Shown here: positions 28,175 through 62,296 of the stretch, in pieces | Layout: each line of letters opens with the position of its first letter | Numbering within the stretch: position 1 is the first letter of the stretch | NCBI GenBank assembly: GCA_027493885.1 | Contig: JAOSJZ010000001.1 | Coordinates: 2,040,622 to 2,104,621, forward strand | Length of the DNA stretch: 64,000 bases | Direction: 5' to 3' | Source of the DNA: Gaiella sp. | GTDB taxonomy: Bacteria > Actinomycetota > Thermoleophilia > Gaiellales > Gaiellaceae | Made by a program: the position numbers and the translations under genes | The notes under the pieces: generated by a model | What the model was told of the DNA's origin: nothing | What the model saw: the letters and a program-made list of their open reading frames with translations, nothing else | Database searches by the model: none

Positions 28175-30109
28175 GTGACCTCGACCACCGAACCGCACTC
28201 GCAGCACGGGCTCCGGCCCGGCGACCCGCCGCCCAGGCGTCGTGGGATCTTCATGCGCCCGGGCTACCTCCGCGCGTCGTGGGTCACGCCGCTCTTCTTC
28301 CTGATCGGGATGTACATCGTGGTCGCGCTCCGCGCGCTCGCGGGCTGGGATCCGGTCTACGACTGGGAGTACATCGTCCTGATCGCGGGCATGGTGACCG
28401 CCCCGATCGGCTTCCTGCTCGGGATGGGCGTGTTCGACTACTGGCTGTACTGGATCTCCGGCCGGCCGACCGTCGCCGACGACCACGCGAGCCACGGTGC
28501 CTACAGCTGGAAGGACTACTTCAAGGTCAACACCGATCACAAGGTGATCGGGATCCAGTACCTCGTGACGACGTTCTTCTTCTTCGTCGCCGGCGGCTTC
28601 CTCGCGATGCTGTTCCGCGCCGAGCTGGCCGAGCCGGGGATGCAGTTCTTCGACACGCAGACCTTCAACGGGCTCGTGTCCGCGCACGCGACCCTGATGA
28701 TCTTCGTGTTCATCATCCCGGCCTTCGCGGGTCTCGCGAACTTCGCCGTGCCGCTCATGCTCGGCGCCCCGGACATGGCGTTCCCGCGCCTGAACGCGCT
28801 CAGCTTCTGGATGCTCCCGGTCGCCGGCGCGCTCTTCCTCGCGAGCTTCCTCGCGCCGGGCGGCGCCTTCGCTACCGGCTGGACGAGCTACGCGCCGCTC
28901 GCCTCGGAGCAGCCGTTCGGCCAGGTCTTCTTCAACATGGGCGTCCAGTGGGCGGGCGCGTCGTCGATCGCGACCGCGCTCAACTTCCTCGTCACGATCA
29001 TCACCATGCGCGCGCCGGGGATGACCTTCTGGCGCATGCCGCTCCTCGTCTGGGCGAACTTCACCACCTCGCTCCTCGTCGTGATCGCGACGCCGTTCAT
29101 CGCCGGGTCGCAGTTCTTCGTGATGTTCGACCGGGTGATGCACACGAGCTTCTTCACGCCGGACAACGGCGGCTACGTGCTCGGCTACCAGCACATCTTC
29201 TGGTTCTACTCGCACCCCGCCGTCTACATCATGGTCCTGCCCGGCTTCGGGATCATCTCCGAGGTGATCTCCGTGTTCAGCCGCAAGCCCATCTTCGGCT
29301 ACCGCCTGATGGCCGTCTCGTTGATCGGGATCCTCGTGCTCGCGTTCTCCGTCTGGGCGCACCACATGTTCGTCGCCGGGATGGCCGACTGGCTACGCAT
29401 CCCGATGATGATCTCGACCCTCCTGATCGCGGTGCCGACCGGAATCAAGGTGTTTTCGTGGTTGGCAACGCTCTGGGAGGGGAAGCTTCACCTCTCGACG
29501 CCGATGCTGTTCGCGCTCGGCTTCATCTCGACGTTCGTGATCGGAGGCCTCTCCGGCGTCTACGTCGCCTCCGTCCCGATCGACATCCACGCCTCCGACA
29601 CGTACTTCGTCGTTGCGCACATCCACTACGTCCTCTTCGGCGGCTCCGTGTTCACGATCTTCGCGGGCCTCTATTACTGGTTCCCGAAGATGACCGGCCG
29701 CATGTTCGACGAGCGTCTCGGCAAGCTCCATTTCTGGCTGACGTTCGTCACGTTCAACCTCACGTTCTTCCCCATGCACTGGCTCGGGCTCGACGGGATG
29801 CCGCGTCGCGTCGCCGACTATGCGGGCACCTACGGCGCGCTCAACATGGTGGTCTCGATCGGCTCGTTCGTGCTCGGCGCGTCCGTCGTGATCTTCGCCT
29901 ACAACATCGTCGTCAGCTGGGCGCGCGGCCCGGTCGCCGAGTCCAACCCGTGGAAGGCGATGACGATCGAGTGGCAGGTCTCCTCGCCGCCGCCGGTGTT
30001 CAACTTCGACGAGATCCCGCAGGTGGTCGGCGGGCCGTACGAGTACGGCGTCCCGGGCGCGCGTCACGCGGTGCTCAGGGGCGGAGCGCTCCAGGAGGCG
30101 CACGCATGA
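28175..30109 (+). CDS. ctaD: Cytochrome c oxidase subunit I
   Basis: A 644-residue haem-copper oxidase subunit I with about 12 or more transmembrane helices. Ligands are visible: LVSAHATLMIF (low-spin haem a), YSHPAVYIM (CuB His with the cross-linked Tyr), VWAHHMFVAG (two CuB His) and VVAHIHYVLFGG (haem a3 and a). It reduces O2 to water and pumps protons. GGAAGGA lies 7-8 nt before the GTG at 28175; a GTG at 28154 is also in frame. The stop overlaps the ATG of the next gene. An A-type oxidase is indicated by NFAVPLMLGAPDMAFPRLN. Confidence 0.96.
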   Translation: MTSTTEPHSQHGLRPGDPPPRRRGIFMRPGYLRASWVTPLFFLIGMYIVVALRALAGWDPVYDWEYIVLIAGMVTAPIGFLLGMGVFDYWLYWISGRPTVADDHASHGAYSWKDYFKVNTDHKVIGIQYLVTTFFFFVAGGFLAMLFRAELAEPGMQFFDTQTFNGLVSAHATLMIFVFIIPAFAGLANFAVPLMLGAPDMAFPRLNALSFWMLPVAGALFLASFLAPGGAFATGWTSYAPLASEQPFGQVFFNMGVQWAGASSIATALNFLVTIITMRAPGMTFWRMPLLVWANFTTSLLVVIATPFIAGSQFFVMFDRVMHTSFFTPDNGGYVLGYQHIFWFYSHPAVYIMVLPGFGIISEVISVFSRKPIFGYRLMAVSLIGILVLAFSVWAHHMFVAGMADWLRIPMMISTLLIAVPTGIKVFSWLATLWEGKLHLSTPMLFALGFISTFVIGGLSGVYVASVPIDIHASDTYFVVAHIHYVLFGGSVFTIFAGLYYWFPKMTGRMFDERLGKLHFWLTFVTFNLTFFPMHWLGLDGMPRRVADYAGTYGALNMVVSIGSFVLGASVVIFAYNIVVSWARGPVAESNPWKAMTIEWQVSSPPPVFNFDEIPQVVGGPYEYGVPGARHAVLRGGALQEAHA

Positions 30110-30963
30110 ACGAGACCGAGCCGAGGCACGTCCTCGTCGTCGCGAACGAGACGCTCGTCGGGGAGGAGCTGCTCGACGCCGTCCGCCGGCGCGCGTCGCA
30201 GGGCTCCATTCGGGCCGTCGTGATCGCACCGGTGAACGAGCCGAGCGCGGGCTACGTCGTCTACCGGAACTCGCGCCGGGCGTCCGCCGGCCGGCGCGTC
30301 GACCGGATGGTCACGGCGCTCCGCGAGGCGGGGATCCCGGCGCACGGGGATGTCTTCGAGGGCGGCCCGATCGCGGCCGTGGAGGACGTGCTCGCGATGG
30401 AAGTCGTGGACGAGCTGATCGTCTCGACCCATCCCGAGCAGAAGTCGGGGTGGCTGCGCAAGAAGAACGTGCTCGCCGAGCTCCGCCGCCTCGCAGGCGA
30501 GAGGCCGTTCGAGCACGTCGTCTCCGACGTCGCGTCGCGCACAGGCGAGGCGAACGTGCTCGTCGTCGCGAACGAGACGGTCCTCGGCGAGCGCCTGCTC
30601 GATCGGATCCGGCAGCGTGCGGCCGAAGGGCCTTCGGCGTTCCTGCTCGTCTGCCCGCAAAGCGACCCGGACGCCGGCGAGTACCCCGCGGCCGAGCGAC
30701 GGCTCCGCGCGGCCCTCTCGGCGCTCCGCGACGAGGGCATCGAGGCGCACGGCGAGATCGCGCACCCCGACCCGTACACCGCGACGATGGCCGTCCTCGG
30801 CGACGAGCGGGTCGACGAGATCATCGTCTCGACGTTTCCGGGCGAGCGCTCCGGTTGGCTCCGCCGAGACGTCGTCGAGCGGCTCCGAAGGGACGCAGGG
30901 ATTCGGGTCGAGCACGTTGTCGCGGATCTCGCTCCGCGAGATCCAAGTGGGGCCAGAGCATGA
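30106..30963 (+). CDS. Tandem-domain nucleotide-binding-like (Usp-type) protein in the cox operon
   Basis: A 285-residue protein made of two homologous alpha/beta units. Each unit begins with HVLVVANETLVGEELLD or NVLVVANETVLGERLLD and ends with DELIVSTHPEQKSGWLRKK or DEIIVSTFPGERSGWLRRD plus an HVV-D strand. The Rossmann-like pattern resembles universal stress proteins, but the GxxG(S/T) ATP loop is not clear. A third copy is encoded at 31820-32458. It is coupled to ctaD (ATGA overlap), so a role in oxidase expression, assembly or energy sensing is possible but unproven. Confidence 0.7.
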   Translation: MNETEPRHVLVVANETLVGEELLDAVRRRASQGSIRAVVIAPVNEPSAGYVVYRNSRRASAGRRVDRMVTALREAGIPAHGDVFEGGPIAAVEDVLAMEVVDELIVSTHPEQKSGWLRKKNVLAELRRLAGERPFEHVVSDVASRTGEANVLVVANETVLGERLLDRIRQRAAEGPSAFLLVCPQSDPDAGEYPAAERRLRAALSALRDEGIEAHGEIAHPDPYTATMAVLGDERVDEIIVSTFPGERSGWLRRDVVERLRRDAGIRVEHVVADLAPRDPSGARA

Positions 30964-31031
30964 CGGCTTCGCAGGAGCGATTCGCAGTGCGCTCGGCGGG
31001 ATCGACTCCGAAGGAGGCGAGACCGCGGTGA
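30960..31031 (+). CDS. Possible 23-residue coupled small ORF
   Basis: ATGA at 30960 overlaps the stop of the preceding gene, and its TGA overlaps the GTG of ctaE (GTGA). The peptide MTASQERFAVRSAGSTPKEARPR is basic and has no membrane helix. Coupling at both ends suggests translation; the sequence itself gives no function and it may be fortuitous. Confidence 0.3.
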   Translation: MTASQERFAVRSAGSTPKEARPR

Positions 31032-31672
31032 GCGACATTCCGATCAGCGGTGGCCCACACCTGGCGGGGTCGCATCCGCAGGAGGCGATCCCGCACGGGC
31101 CGCCCCCCGCAAACCGCAGCTCGCGGCTCGATGCGGCAACGCTCGGGATGTTCCTCTTCATCGCGTCGGAGGCGATGCTCTTCGGCGCGTTCTTCACGGC
31201 CTACTTCTTCGTGCGCGTCGTCAACCCGACCGCGACCGAGACCTGGCCGCCCGCGCCCTTCGAGTTCCCCGTCTTCGTCGCGGGCGTCAACACCGCGATA
31301 CTCGTCACCTCGAGCTTCACCATCCACTGGGCGACGCAGGCGATCAAGCGGAACGACCGGAACGGGCTTCGCGCCGGTCTGGTCGTCACGATCCTGCTCG
31401 GCAGCGCGTTTCTTCTGACGCAGGCGATCGAGTACGCGCACGTCGGCTTCAACACGGGCGACGGCGCGTTCGCGTCGGTGTTCTTCGGTCTCACCGGGCT
31501 CCACGGCGCGCACGTCTTCGTCGGCCTCTCGCTGCTGACGATCGCCGCCGTGCGTGCCTTCCGCGGCCATTTCTCGGCCGAGCACCACCACGGCGTCGAG
31601 ATCCCCGGGATCTACTGGCACTTCGTTGACGTGATGTGGATCATCGTGTTCTTCGCCGTGTACGTGCTCTAG
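31028..31672 (+). CDS. ctaE: Cytochrome c oxidase subunit III
   Basis: A 214-residue subunit III with five or six helices. Family motifs are LGMFLFIASEAMLFGAFFTAYFFVR (with the conserved Glu), QAIEYAHVGF, FFGLTGLHGAHVFVGLSLL and the C-terminal HGVEIPGIYWHFVDVMWIIVFFAVYVL. The GTG at 31028 follows AAGGAGG. Subunit III stabilises the oxidase and its proton uptake. The stop codon abuts a palindromic hairpin (31672-31694). Confidence 0.93.
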   Translation: MSDIPISGGPHLAGSHPQEAIPHGPPPANRSSRLDAATLGMFLFIASEAMLFGAFFTAYFFVRVVNPTATETWPPAPFEFPVFVAGVNTAILVTSSFTIHWATQAIKRNDRNGLRAGLVVTILLGSAFLLTQAIEYAHVGFNTGDGAFASVFFGLTGLHGAHVFVGLSLLTIAAVRAFRGHFSAEHHHGVEIPGIYWHFVDVMWIIVFFAVYVL

Positions 31673-31694
31673 GCACCTCGCTGCGCGAAGTGCC
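31672..31694. repeat. GGCAC-hairpin repeat copy 1
   Basis: GGCACCTCGC-TGC-GCGAAGTGCC: 10-bp stem with one G-T wobble, starting on the last base of the ctaE stop. Member of a dispersed hairpin family (see 31797, 32461, 61670, 61729). May also terminate transcription. Confidence 0.7.
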
Positions 31695-31796
31695 AGGGAA
31701 GAGCCAACGACCCGGCTCCCGGCACGGCCGTCGAAGTTCGTGCAGAGTGTTGCCATGTCGGTGCGTGCCCCGCAGGCGCGAGCCCATGCTCTCTCT

Positions 31797-31819
31797 GGCA
31801 CTTCCCGCAGGGAAGTGCC
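31797..31819. repeat. GGCAC-hairpin repeat copy 2
   Basis: GGCACTTCCC-GCA-GGGAAGTGCC, perfect 10-bp stem. With copy 1 it brackets about 100 bp without a gene; flanking CCAGG/CTGG bases are also inverted, so the two copies form a REPIN-like doublet. Confidence 0.75.
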
Positions 31820-32458
31820 TTGAGGAATCCGCTCCGAGACGAGGCCTCCGCCTTCCAGGTTGTCCTGGTGACGCTCGGCGGCGCGATCCTGGTCGTGATC
31901 GCCGCCTGGATCTCGACGTGGCTCGGGCTCGCCGTCTTCCTCGTGCTCCTCGGCGCCGCACTCTGGGCGATCAGGGGCGGCCTGCGGCAGCGGCCGCCGC
32001 AGGCCCACGTCGTCCACGATGGCGGTCCCGCCAGGCGCATCCTCGTCGTCGCCAACGAGACGGTGGGTGGAGGCGAGCTGCGTGAGCTCATCGGCCGCAG
32101 GGCGACGGGCGTCCGCGAGGACGTGCTCGTCGTCTGCCCCGCCCTCAACTCGAAGCTCCACACCTGGACCTCGGACGAGGACGGCGCGCGGGCCGCCGCG
32201 CAGGCGCGTCTCGACGCGAGCCTCGACCGGCTACGGGGCGAGGGCATCGCCGCGCGCGGCGAGATCGGGGACGGCGACCCTTTGCAGGCGCTCGAGGACG
32301 CGCTCCGCGTGTTCCCCGCGGACGAGATCGTCATCTCCACCCATCCGCCGGGCCGCTCGCACTGGCTCGAGCGCGGCGTCGTCGACCAGGCCCGTCTTCG
32401 CTTCGACGTGCCTGTGACCCACGTCGTCGTGGATCTGGAGGCCGGTCCGCCGCTCTAA
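31820..32458 (+). CDS. Membrane-anchored single copy of the cox-operon Usp-like domain
   Basis: A 212-residue protein. MRNPLRDEASAFQVVLVTLGGAILVVIAAWI and LGLAVFLVLLGAALWAIRGG are two transmembrane segments. The cytoplasmic domain is homologous to those at 30106-30963: RILVVANETVGGGELRELIG, DVLVVCPALNSKLHTW, GDPLQALEDALRVFPADEIVISTHPPGRSHWLE. The TTG start comes directly after hairpin copy 2 with no clear Shine-Dalgarno sequence. Conservation of the NPLRDEASAF start in relatives I recall supports it. Same likely functional theme as the soluble tandem version. Confidence 0.75.
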   Translation: MRNPLRDEASAFQVVLVTLGGAILVVIAAWISTWLGLAVFLVLLGAALWAIRGGLRQRPPQAHVVHDGGPARRILVVANETVGGGELRELIGRRATGVREDVLVVCPALNSKLHTWTSDEDGARAAAQARLDASLDRLRGEGIAARGEIGDGDPLQALEDALRVFPADEIVISTHPPGRSHWLERGVVDQARLRFDVPVTHVVVDLEAGPPL

Positions 32459-32460
32459 CT

Positions 32461-32483
32461 GGCACTTCGCGGAGCGAAGTGCC
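32461..32483. terminator. GGCAC-hairpin copy 3, probable bidirectional terminator
   Basis: GGCACTTCGC-GGA-GCGAAGTGCC, perfect 10-bp stem, located exactly between two convergent genes (stops at 32458 and 32487). Confidence 0.7.
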
Positions 32484-32486
32484 TCG

Positions 32487-33200
32487 CTACGTGCCGGCGT
32501 TCTCCGCGACGAACGTCGCGACGGCCTCGATCTGCGCATCGCTCAGCTGGCCCTCGAAGGCGGGCATCCCGCCGCGGCCGTTCGTGATCCGGTCGAGCGC
32601 GAGCTCCTTCGACGGCTGGGTCTCGTCGAGGTTCGGGCCGACCGTGCCGGTGGCCCCCGCCGCGGCGAGCACATGGCAGGCGGCGCAGCCGGCCGAGGCG
32701 AAGAGAGCCCCGCCGTCCGTACCCCCGCCCGGCGGTGTCGGTGTCGGTGGGCTCGCCGGGTTCATCGGCTGGCCGCTCGCGTCGAGCCCGGCGACCGAGG
32801 CGACGTAGACGGCGACGTCGTCGGCGGCCTGCCCCACGACGATGTCCGCCGGCATGCCCGGGGCGCCGGTGGAGGGCGCCGTCACGGGATAGGCGATCTG
32901 CCCGCGGACGACCTGGAGGATCGTGTCCTCGCCCAGCCCGTCGATCCGGGACTGAACGAACGCATAGTCGAGGTCGGGGCCGATCGTGCCGGTTGTCCCC
33001 GCGTCGCGCAGCGTGTGGCACGAGCCGCAGTGCTGCTGGAAGAGCTCCTTGCCGCGGATCCTGTCGCCCGTCGCCTGCGTGTAGCCGACCGTGTCGCCGC
33101 AGGCCGCGAGGCCGAGCGCGGCGACTAGGCCGAGCGCGACCAGGGTGATCGCCCGCCACGAGCGTCGGCTCGCGCGAGTGCTGGGGGCCGGATGCTCCAC
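32487..33200 (-). CDS. Dihaem cytochrome c lipoprotein
   Basis: A 237-residue exported protein: signal sequence with lipobox LAAC, then two class I cytochrome domains. Haem sites are CGSCH (about residue 58) and CAACH (about residue 172). Sixth-ligand Met residues lie in GAPGMPADIV and GRGGMPAFEG. A Pro/Thr/Gly linker separates the domains. It probably carries electrons from a bc complex to the adjacent cox oxidase at the outer membrane face. The start is GTG at 33200. Confidence 0.9.
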   Translation of the reverse strand: MEHPAPSTRASRRSWRAITLVALGLVAALGLAACGDTVGYTQATGDRIRGKELFQQHCGSCHTLRDAGTTGTIGPDLDYAFVQSRIDGLGEDTILQVVRGQIAYPVTAPSTGAPGMPADIVVGQAADDVAVYVASVAGLDASGQPMNPASPPTPTPPGGGTDGGALFASAGCAACHVLAAAGATGTVGPNLDETQPSKELALDRITNGRGGMPAFEGQLSDAQIEAVATFVAENAGT

Positions 33201-33212
33201 GCGGGAGCGAGT

Positions 33213-34064
33213 CTATCCCGACGCGGCGGCGGCGGTCCCGCGGAGCTGCTTCACCTGCTCGCGGACGACGCCCGCGCTCGGGTCGTCGGGCGCGAGCTTC
33301 AGGAACTGCTCGTAGGCGGCGATCGCGGTCTGGGCGTCGCCGACCTGTTGCGCCGCCTGCGCCAGCTCGAGCTGGACGTTCGGATCGTCCGGCTGGAGCG
33401 CGACCAGGCGCTTGTAGGCGTCGACCGCGAGGGCAGCCTCCGTCTGCGCGTCCTGGAGCGCCGCGCTCACGGTCGTGCTCGCCTGCGCGTTGATCGCCGT
33501 GCCGATGGGGTCGGAGAGGACCGGCTGTCCCGACGGCGCGGTCAGGAGGAGGAAGCCCTGCGAGGGTGCAAGGAACGCGGCGCGGAACTGGGCGAGCTGC
33601 GCGTCACGCTGGCGCTCGGTCGCCCTGCTCAGATGGAGGCCGGCCAGCTCGCGGTACGCGCTCGCGTCCTTCGGGTCGAGATCGATCGCCGTGTCGAGCG
33701 CCGCGATCGCCTCGGCGGTGTTCCCCTCCGTCTCGAGCGCGGTCGCGTAGTCGCGCCACGCCTGCGGGTCCTTCGGCCGGTCTTCCGTCTTCTCGCGGGC
33801 GCTCGAGACCGACGGCCCCGACGAGCCGCCCGAGCCGCGGAAGATGTCGCCGACTCCCGTGCCGCCGGCGCCGACGCCGAAGAAGACGAATCCGAGCCCG
33901 AAGACGAGCGCGAGCAGCACGAACATCCACTTCGCGTGGCGCCGCAGCCGCGGGAAGAACATCGTGTCCTCGATCGACGGCGCGGTCTGCCCCCGGGGGC
34001 GCGCGGGCGCTACCGCAGCATGCGGCTTCGCGCTCTTCGGGCGGCTCTTCTCGAATCTGGCCAT
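33213..34064 (-). CDS. Membrane-anchored TPR protein
   Basis: A 283-residue protein. After a basic N-terminus, one transmembrane helix (WMFVLLALVFGLGFVFFGVG) and a Gly/Ser linker lead to TPR repeats: PQAWRDYATALETEGNTAEAIAALDTAIDLDPKDASAYRELA and VQLELAQAAQQVGDAQTAIAAYEQFLKLAPDDP. Such proteins scaffold envelope complexes, and its place next to cytochrome genes suggests, without proof, a respiratory-assembly role. The ATG at 34064 lies inside the frame-corrected end of the upstream amidohydrolase. Confidence 0.8.
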   Translation of the reverse strand: MARFEKSRPKSAKPHAAVAPARPRGQTAPSIEDTMFFPRLRRHAKWMFVLLALVFGLGFVFFGVGAGGTGVGDIFRGSGGSSGPSVSSAREKTEDRPKDPQAWRDYATALETEGNTAEAIAALDTAIDLDPKDASAYRELAGLHLSRATERQRDAQLAQFRAAFLAPSQGFLLLTAPSGQPVLSDPIGTAINAQASTTVSAALQDAQTEAALAVDAYKRLVALQPDDPNVQLELAQAAQQVGDAQTAIAAYEQFLKLAPDDPSAGVVREQVKQLRGTAAAASG

Positions 34065-61200: not shown

Positions 61201-61667
61201 GCCTCGAGCTCGGGGTGGCGATCGCCGCGGTCGCGATCTCGGCGGTCGCGCTCCTCTCGACCATCGCTGCCTGGCGGCGTGTCCGCGCCCTCCGTCGCGA
61301 CCAGCGCGCGATCCTGGGCGGCTCGACGTCCGACGTGGTCGACTTCGCCGTCTCCCTGCAGGGACGGATCGACGATCTCCATCGGGCGGTCGACGAGGTT
61401 GCCGCGGGCCTGACGCGGGTCGACCGGCGCCTCGACGGCGCCGTCACGAACACCTCCGTCGTGCGCTACGACGCGTACCGGGACGCGGGCGGGCAGCAGT
61501 CCGCGTCGGTCGCCTTCCTCGACTCGACGCGCACCGGCACGGTCGTGACGGCGATCCAGGGCCGCGACTACGCGCGGGTCTACGTGAAGGAGCTCGAGCG
61601 CGGCCAGCCGAACCTCGCCCTCTCGCCGGAGGAGACCCAGGCGGTCGAGAGAGCAATGGCGCGCTAG
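61197..61667 (+). CDS. DUF4446 family protein
   Basis: A 156-residue protein: N-terminal hydrophobic helix (LGVAIAAVAISAVALLSTIAAW), a coiled-coil-like stretch (LQGRIDDLHRAVDEVAAGLTRVDRRLDG) and the DUF4446 core VRYDAYRDAGGQQSASVAFLDSTRTGTVVTAIQGRDYARVYVKELERGQPNLALSPEE. The family is common in Gram-positives and uncharacterised. Coupled to the CARDB-domain protein, with which it may form a membrane complex. Followed by a hairpin doublet. Confidence 0.88.
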   Translation: MSLELGVAIAAVAISAVALLSTIAAWRRVRALRRDQRAILGGSTSDVVDFAVSLQGRIDDLHRAVDEVAAGLTRVDRRLDGAVTNTSVVRYDAYRDAGGQQSASVAFLDSTRTGTVVTAIQGRDYARVYVKELERGQPNLALSPEETQAVERAMAR

Positions 61668-61669
61668 GA

Positions 61670-61693
61670 CACTTTCGCCTGGCGGCGAAAGTG
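61670..61693. repeat. GGCAC-hairpin repeat copy 4
   Basis: CACTTTCGCC-(4 nt)-GGCGAAAGTG, directly after the DUF4446 stop; outer bases GGACAC/GTGCC are a degenerate form of the family tip. Confidence 0.65.
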
Positions 61694-61728
61694 CCAGGAC
61701 CGCGAGGCCGGGCGTTCGGGTCGTTCCT

Positions 61729-61758
61729 GGCACTTTCCGGGCTTGCCCGGAAAGTGCC
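61729..61758. repeat. GGCAC-hairpin repeat copy 5
   Basis: GGCACTTTCCGGGC-TT-GCCCGGAAAGTGCC, a perfect 14-bp stem. With copy 4 it forms an inverted doublet 35 bp apart, with CCAGGA/TCCTGG extending the symmetry. Confidence 0.75.
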
Positions 61759-61774
61759 CTGCTACGCTCGCGCC

Positions 61775-62296
61775 GTGAGTCACGTGCTCGTCCTCAACGC
61801 CAGCTTCGAGCCGTTGAACGTGTGCTCGACGCGGCGCGCGCACGTGCTCGTCTGGAAGGGGAAGGCGGAGGTCGTCGAGCGCCTCGACGAGCCGCTGCGG
61901 ACGGCGACGAACACGTACGTCCGTCCGCACGTGATCCGCCTCGTCACCTACGTCCGGGTGCCTCGCTCGGTGAAACGGCGGATCTCCCGTCGTGCGCTCT
62001 TCGCGCGCGACGGCTGGCGTTGCGTCTACTGCGGCGACGCCGCCGGGCGCCTCACGCTCGACCACGTCGTCCCGCGCTCGCGTGGCGGCGACTCCGTGTG
62101 GGAGAACGTCGTCACCGCATGTTCGCCCTGCAACCTCCGCAAGGGCGACCGGTTGCTCGACGAGGCGCACATGCAGCTCGCGCGAGCCCCGCGCGCGCCT
62201 TCGCCGGTGCTGTTCATCAGCCTGGGGCTCCACCACGTCCCCGACGCCTGGCTCCGCTACCTCCCGGCGAGGGAGACGACCGCCGAGGCGGCCTAG
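61775..62296 (+). CDS. HNH endonuclease (McrA-like)
   Basis: A 173-residue HNH protein: ARDGWRCVYCGDAAGRLTLDHVVPRSRGGDSVWENVVTACSPCNLRKGDR contains CxxC, the DH of the beta-beta-alpha metal fold, Asn and a second CxxC. The N-terminal VLNASFEPLNVCSTRRAHVLVWKGKAEVVE is typical of the chromosomal actinobacterial subfamily, which is not part of a restriction operon and has no known substrate. TACGCT is 6 nt before the GTG, so the mRNA is predicted leaderless. Confidence 0.9.
   Translation: MSHVLVLNASFEPLNVCSTRRAHVLVWKGKAEVVERLDEPLRTATNTYVRPHVIRLVTYVRVPRSVKRRISRRALFARDGWRCVYCGDAAGRLTLDHVVPRSRGGDSVWENVVTACSPCNLRKGDRLLDEAHMQLARAPRAPSPVLFISLGLHHVPDAWLRYLPARETTAEAA

Follow-up and report, generated by a model that had tools for sequence, protein, structure and literature searches.

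What spreads or maintains the hairpin of GGCACTT and AAGTGCC arms that recurs at gene boundaries of a Gaiella genome, and does it belong with mobile bacterial palindromes, with transcription terminators or with elements that act in RNA? A sequence-only reading of the stretch of 64,000 nucleotides analyzed here (the window) had described five hairpins with a shared tip, partly in inverted doublets, and had likened them to REPINs, which elsewhere are moved by RAYT transposases. We analyzed these copies, searched the 3.29-Mb genome to which the window belongs (G000, a soil-type actinobacterium of the Gaiellales) by pattern, sampled it in stretches, and compared its sites with those of related genomes.

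Five hairpins and two doublets in the window

All five hairpins are present (31672-31694, 31797-31819, 32461-32483, 61668-61695 and 61729-61758), four of them at the starts first given and one at 61668 instead of 61670. Their folds are stable, at -14 to -26 kcal/mol. The description of two pairs enclosing gene-free spacers with extended inverted symmetry was borne out: the spacers measure 102 and 33 bp, and in computed folds the symmetry of the doublets runs beyond the hairpins (AAGTGCCAGG...CCTGGCACTT). The stop codon of the upstream gene coincides with the first hairpin of each doublet or lies at most one base from it. In doublet A this gene encodes cytochrome oxidase subunit III (cox3; 31148-31672, forward strand, as called here; the true start may be further upstream), and the first G of hairpin 1 (GGCACCTCGCTGCGCGAAGTGCC; 31672-31694) is the last base of its stop TAG (31670-31672). 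Hairpin 1 is imperfect, one arm reading GGCACCT, and has a degenerate orthologue in the sister species G004. The spacer (31695-31796) starts with AGGGAAGAGC and ends with GCTCTCTCT, continuing the inverted symmetry and closing on a CT tag (31795-31796); in G004 it has shrunk to 2 bp (TA). Hairpin 2 (31797-31819; perfect 10-bp stem) adjoins the TTG start (31820) of a gene for a 212-aa protein (31820-32458, forward strand), and its loop and right arm contain a Shine-Dalgarno (SD)-like AGGGAAG (31809-31815). This start is backed by orthologue N-termini in G004 (ATGAAAAATCCT) and in the congener G006 (ATGCGCAATCCA). The protein has an N-terminal hydrophobic segment, no NCBIfam match, and a likeness to a Usp-like neighbor gene judged by eye only.

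The single hairpin (32461-32483; CT tag 32459-32460) separates this gene from a convergent gene for a diheme c-type cytochrome (32487-33200, reverse strand). In doublet B, hairpin 1 (GACACTTTCGCC..GGCGAAAGTGCC; 61668-61695) stands immediately 3' of a stop TAG (61665-61667) and is imperfect, its first arm reading GACACTT. The 33-bp spacer (61696-61728) has AGG...CCT ends with a CT tag at 61727-61728, and the spacer at the same site in G004 is 27 bp long and of different sequence. Hairpin 2 (61729-61758; perfect 14-bp stem) lies upstream of a -10-like TACGCT (61763-61768) and of the GTG start (61775) of an HNH-domain protein gene (61775-62296, forward strand), which was used for the comparison of orthologous sites. 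Rfam returned nothing above the gathering score in 31000-33000, and a terminator scan of 30000-33500 flagged none of the hairpins there.

Abundance, anatomy and distribution of the family

The window has three matches to the pattern GGCACTTN{2,30}AAGTGCC, and 100 shuffles gave none. The genome-wide count that had been proposed as a check of over-representation gave 19 perfect copies, against none for a reversed control. Among 7-base hairpin stems seen at least four times in a 464-kb sample, GGCACTT is the most enriched (15 observed, 0.047 expected, about 300-fold); this sample includes stretches picked for containing matches, so that the whole-genome figure of 19 against none is the unbiased one. 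Dropping the outer G from the pattern adds only two sites, and all seven bases are therefore held. The family comprises about 21 near-perfect copies, or about 30 when degenerate ones are counted, and like REP families it consists of dispersed, over-represented palindromes of 20-40 bp. Doublet spacing, also proposed as a check, departs from chance: three pairs lie less than 200 bp apart and nine copies fall within 60 kb, neither of which was reached in 20,000 random placements. The runners-up in stem enrichment are sub-strings of GGCACTT and a second palindrome family of G000 (GGTGTCCGACT-AAGTCGGACACC), which has about 54 sites and a constant core throughout and which was used as an internal control, representing an ordinary REP-like family. 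This second family (GTCCGACTNAAGTCGGAC) forms tandem arrays at C1:32752-33070 and 2343875-2344425 of G000, with 60-bp and 133-bp spacing. A reading of GGCACTT as a DNA-uptake sequence was rejected because the unpaired motif is too scarce (33 GGCACTT and 30 AAGTGCC in 544 kb, with 19 in hairpins).

Only the lower 7 bp of the stem are conserved across the family. The inner stem sequence is distinct in 18 of the 19 copies, yet it pairs nearly up to the loop, and mean pairing beyond the fixed 7 bp is 4.1, as opposed to 1.3 in 2000 shuffles (shuffle maximum 2.3). A CT dinucleotide directly borders the hairpin in 17 of 19 copies, and just 2 of them carry it on both sides (P about 2e-15); lying mostly on one side, it gives the unit a direction. 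Doublets carry their tags inside, in the order hairpin-AGG...CCT-hairpin, and further examples in G000 are located at C1:1348119/1348293, 1370617/1370658, 1508392/1508484 and 2432967/2433093. Inverted dimers number about 6-7 in G000, single units are common, and spacer length shifts between orthologous sites.

Most copies are situated where genes of essential operons end or start, at stop codons and SD sites in the operons of rps, rpo, nuo, cox and atp genes. Occupied sites, some with gene names assigned from protein sequence by eye, include the rplL-rpoB, rpoB-rpoC and rpsN-rpsH junctions, the rpsE tail, the surroundings of an N-terminal extension of rpsQ, cox3, the nuoH-nuoI and leuD-leuB junctions, erpA, cysND and phoPR. 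The choice of sites is far from random, with many in rps, rpo, nuo, cox, atp and 2-oxoacid dehydrogenase genes. As described for REP sequences, copies are intergenic, near 3' gene ends and between unidirectional or convergent genes; some are in frame, within an error-prone DNA polymerase (DnaE2-type), the linker of a 2-oxoacid dehydrogenase E2 subunit and the rpsE tail. The stop codons of several upstream genes are supplied by the element or form its start.

Within the genus, the palindromic repeat family is real and restricted to the lineage of G000 and G004: among 61 genomes the exact pattern occurs 19 times in G000, five times in G004, and not at all in five other congeners or 54 other relatives. 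Sites common to the two species are those at HNH, cox3, rpoB, rpsE, rpsN and atpG. In G004 the HNH doublet is kept with different inner stems, the two cox3 hairpins are only 2 bp apart, and the hairpins at rpoB, rpsE and rpsN are degenerate; between the two species the inner stems have thus diverged around a lower stem that is retained. The HNH doublet is missing at the same junction in G006, G005, G003 and G007, G004 and G006 lack a hairpin between leuD and leuB, and the erpA site is absent in G004. Filled and empty sites of the kind that mobility would leave can thus be recognized from sequence at HNH, leuD-leuB and erpA, in a comparison that had weak or no coverage for the glmM, phoPR and nuoG sites. 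Shared and empty sites together place the family in the common ancestor of the two species, with sites gained or lost since. At L065:4769-4843 of G004, proC-like and atpG flanks that are about 19 kb apart in G000 meet at a hairpin doublet, through rearrangement or mis-assembly.

At the junctions that GGCACTT hairpins occupy, other congeners carry different palindromes; in G003, for example, the N-terminal extension of rpsQ and the rpsE tail contain in-frame palindromes of the GGGGACTGTCCCC type (L184, L174). Matches across the class were rejected as relatives, most genomes having a single match, at control level; G127, of another genus in the same family, and the distant genus g53 were followed because they hold several copies with paired inner stems. 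In G127, GGCACTT hairpins occur just before the TTG start of dnaX, where the right arm contains the SD, and downstream of rplL (L365:768-792, L367:2026-2056), locations of the same sort as in G000. G281, of another family, has seven matches (L368), and those listed are all GGCACTTN8AAGTGCC with a fixed 22-bp length, resembling an operator.

Transposases and known palindromic repeats

The likening held as far as REP-like behavior goes: the elements are dispersed and over-represented, with one-sided tags, inverted dimers, lineage-specific occurrence, empty sites, in-frame copies and stops that they supply. The connection to RAYT transposases did not hold in this genome. No RAYT-like Y1 gene flanked by the same hairpins was found in G000 or G004. 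G000 has a single Y1 transposase gene (C1:905784-906119), with a different palindrome, GGTGTCAGACACC, on its flanks; in G004 too, Y1 genes have no GGCACTT flanks, showing other palindromes or none. Many Y1 genes of the class lie between palindromes or long inverted repeats that have a common outer part and an element-specific inner part. Genus g53, in the same class, has solo palindromes of ACCCCGGTGTCAGGCACTTAACCG with a variable paired inner stem, and these arms also enclose RAYT genes in G071 and G197, where they form inverted repeats of 23-26 bp (L371:1277-1985, L372:1341-2048), a g53 RAYT being bounded by GGCACTTAACC arms. By analogy, these loci show a fixed-outer, variable-inner design within a RAYT element, while the sequence shared with the Gaiella family may be coincidence, since g53 was found with the same 7-mer as search key.

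REPINs, reportedly described by Bertels and Rainey in 2011, are two palindromes in inverted order with a short spacer between them. The GGCACTT doublets share the inverted pair around a short spacer, whereas the copies are mostly single, spacers range from 2 to about 150 bp, and the genome holds no RAYT with the same palindrome. The REP super-families GTAG and CGTC are palindromes of 20-40 bp with a one-sided tag, found singly and as inverted dimers near gene 3' ends (Di Nocera et al. 2013, PMC3733652); published families also occur in DnaE2 genes and supply TAG stops, and some have complementary variable loops (PMC3733652). The present family resembles them in size, dispersal, one-sided tag, single and inverted-dimer forms, location at 3' gene ends, TAG stops and an in-frame DnaE2 copy, and differs in its CT tag, with GTAG and CGTC absent from the units, in tags placed inside the dimers, in a copy number of about 20-30 and in an inner stem that differs in almost every copy. 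The family works like REP sequences and lacks two of the REP/REPIN features that were tested, the GTAG/CGTC tag and RAYT linkage. TIRYT genes, or TIRtrons, are RAYT genes with long terminal inverted repeats (PMC3733652); they share the constant outer and element-specific matching inner arms also seen at Thermoleophilia RAYT loci, although no autonomous copy with GGCACTT arms is found in G000 or G004. The Rickettsia palindromic elements RPE-4/6 are in-frame palindromic insertions in protein genes (PMC3733652), comparable in that respect to the in-frame copies; their sequence is unrelated, and GGCACTT copies lie mostly at gene boundaries. A literature search on Thermoleophilia palindromes or hairpin families with compensatory stems returned nothing relevant.

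Probable mobile palindromes or possible intercistronic RNA hairpins

By a judgment that falls just on the favorable side of even, we take the GGCACTT hairpins to be a low-copy family of REP-like, non-autonomous palindromic repeats with a fixed lower and a free upper stem, settled in intercistronic positions. The unit is a CT dinucleotide plus a hairpin with a GGCACTT/AAGTGCC lower stem and a varying paired upper stem, present singly or as inverted dimers with the tags inside. It may have spread as single-stranded hairpins handled by an HuH endonuclease of the TnpA_REP/RAYT type, which would read the lower stem and CT by sequence and the upper stem as structure only; the upper stem, needed only as structure, could then drift by paired changes. 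In vitro, the upper stem-loop matters to E. coli TnpA_REP as a structure, whatever its sequence: the upper stem can be swapped for its complement and cannot be removed, and bases of the lower stem are contacted specifically (PMC8266576); other TnpA_REP enzymes cut at CT (PMC8266576). A fixed lower stem, a free upper stem and a basal CT are, by this analogy, what a TnpA_REP-like enzyme would leave. The copies of today would be retained chiefly where core operons have their stop codons and ribosome-binding sites; in RNA form, these intercistronic hairpins may protect ends, damp read-through or mask the ribosome site. Against this reading count the lack of a RAYT flanked by these hairpins in G000 or G004, the missing GTAG or CGTC tag, the low copy number and the bias toward core operons, which would suit selected RNA elements better; nuoH, in which one arm is native coding sequence, is not explained by simple insertion.

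A rival reading, to which we give a real yet clearly minority probability, is that these are non-mobile RNA hairpins kept or re-created by host selection at stops and ribosome-binding sites for mRNA processing, stability or translational coupling, the lower stem being the site of a host RNA-binding or -cleaving factor. Its main support comes from the hairpins at gene ends of G000 at large. The ends of nuoI, nuoH, rpsH and rpsJ are long near-perfect palindromes (L110:7284-7331, L110:6712-6754, L049:10570-10608, L049:18178-18211) with native coding sequence as left arm and its reverse complement, after the stop, as right arm. The inverted copies of the adjacent gene end measure 23 bp at nuoI, 18 bp at rpsH and 15 bp at rpsJ, and the second arm is lacking in congeneric orthologues of nuoI, nuoH and rpsH. 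Perfect hairpins (arms of at least 9) number 13 per 100 windows around stops, 7 around starts and 1.5 inside genes in G000, and core-operon junctions hold unrelated hairpins whose apex contains the stop codon or SD. A GGAGG SD occupies the apex, with the start codon in or beside the right arm, at L049:10984-11010, L049:10505-10533, L110:7363-7399, L110:10287-10313 and upstream of rpoC (L050); at rpoC and rpsH, some congeners hold an SD-apex hairpin with different, still pairing arms. Hairpin 31797-31819 likewise contains the SD of its downstream gene, as does the G127 hairpin before dnaX. Host selection alone leaves unexplained the one-sided CT, the in-frame copies in DnaE2 and the E2 linker, the copy between convergent genes and the relatives' junctions without hairpin, and tag orientation relative to transcription, 9 to 4 by hand count, has no clear bias.

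In a wider arrangement, a stop-codon hairpin is joined through an AT-rich linker to an SD hairpin at rpsJ-rplC, rpsH-rplF and nuoI-nuoJ, with sequences unrelated to GGCACTT; at rpoB-rpoC the same layout has a GGCACTT hairpin as its 3' hairpin, the first member. The intercistronic linkers (L049:17488-18194, L050:11714-11805, L110:7311-7395) are 85-92 bp long with 51-57% AT in a genome of 72% GC, and occur mostly in ribosomal, RNA polymerase and nuo operons. As a speculative extension that we consider rather doubtful, core operons of the lineage might carry mRNA-punctuation cassettes of 3' stop hairpin, AT-rich linker and 5' SD-apex hairpin, with arms often being inverted gene-end copies, in which GGCACTT would be a recurrent, possibly mobile module supplying either hairpin; such cassettes would set the processing and stoichiometry of the ribosome, RNA polymerase and respiratory complexes. 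The GGCACTT family is linked to the unrelated SD- and stop-apex hairpins by position only.

The hairpins had also been suggested to double as terminators. Many copies are 3' of stop codons, one is between convergent genes, and the stable folds are what intrinsic terminators share with them; plain intrinsic or U-less terminators whose outer stems are alike by chance are nonetheless improbable, and the suggestion is not supported as a general explanation. Intrinsic terminators close a transcription unit with a stem-loop and a T-run behind it, whereas none of the 19 perfect copies has a T-run after the hairpin on either strand, and copies lie inside operons (rplL-rpoB-rpoC, rpsN-rpsH, nuoH-nuoI) and reading frames; the shared lower stem and CT tag find no explanation in this account. 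Still less probable is a role as operator in double-stranded DNA, bound by a regulator or nucleoid protein that recognizes palindromes, a role for which the fixed outer half-sites and the fixed-spacing sites of G281 might speak: in G000 the half-sites are 7 to 29 bp apart, and the complementary inner part would be superfluous. Chance or assembly artefact comes into question because the closest relatives are metagenome assemblies, as probably is the genome that the window comes from; it is refuted, to near certainty, by shuffled and reversed-pattern controls that yield nothing and by orthologous hairpins in an independently assembled sister genome.

If the reading as REP-like palindromic repeats is right, the family would be a natural demonstration of what the TnpA_REP experiments hint at in vitro, a mobile hairpin known by its lower stem and flank whose upper stem is free as long as it stays paired. 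It would also show how a repeat family lodges in the most conserved bacterial operons. Within the genus, the palindromes at these shared junctions seem to be particular to each species, so that filled and empty sites in sister species would make it possible to test whether such palindromes are REP-like parasites or working RNA parts.
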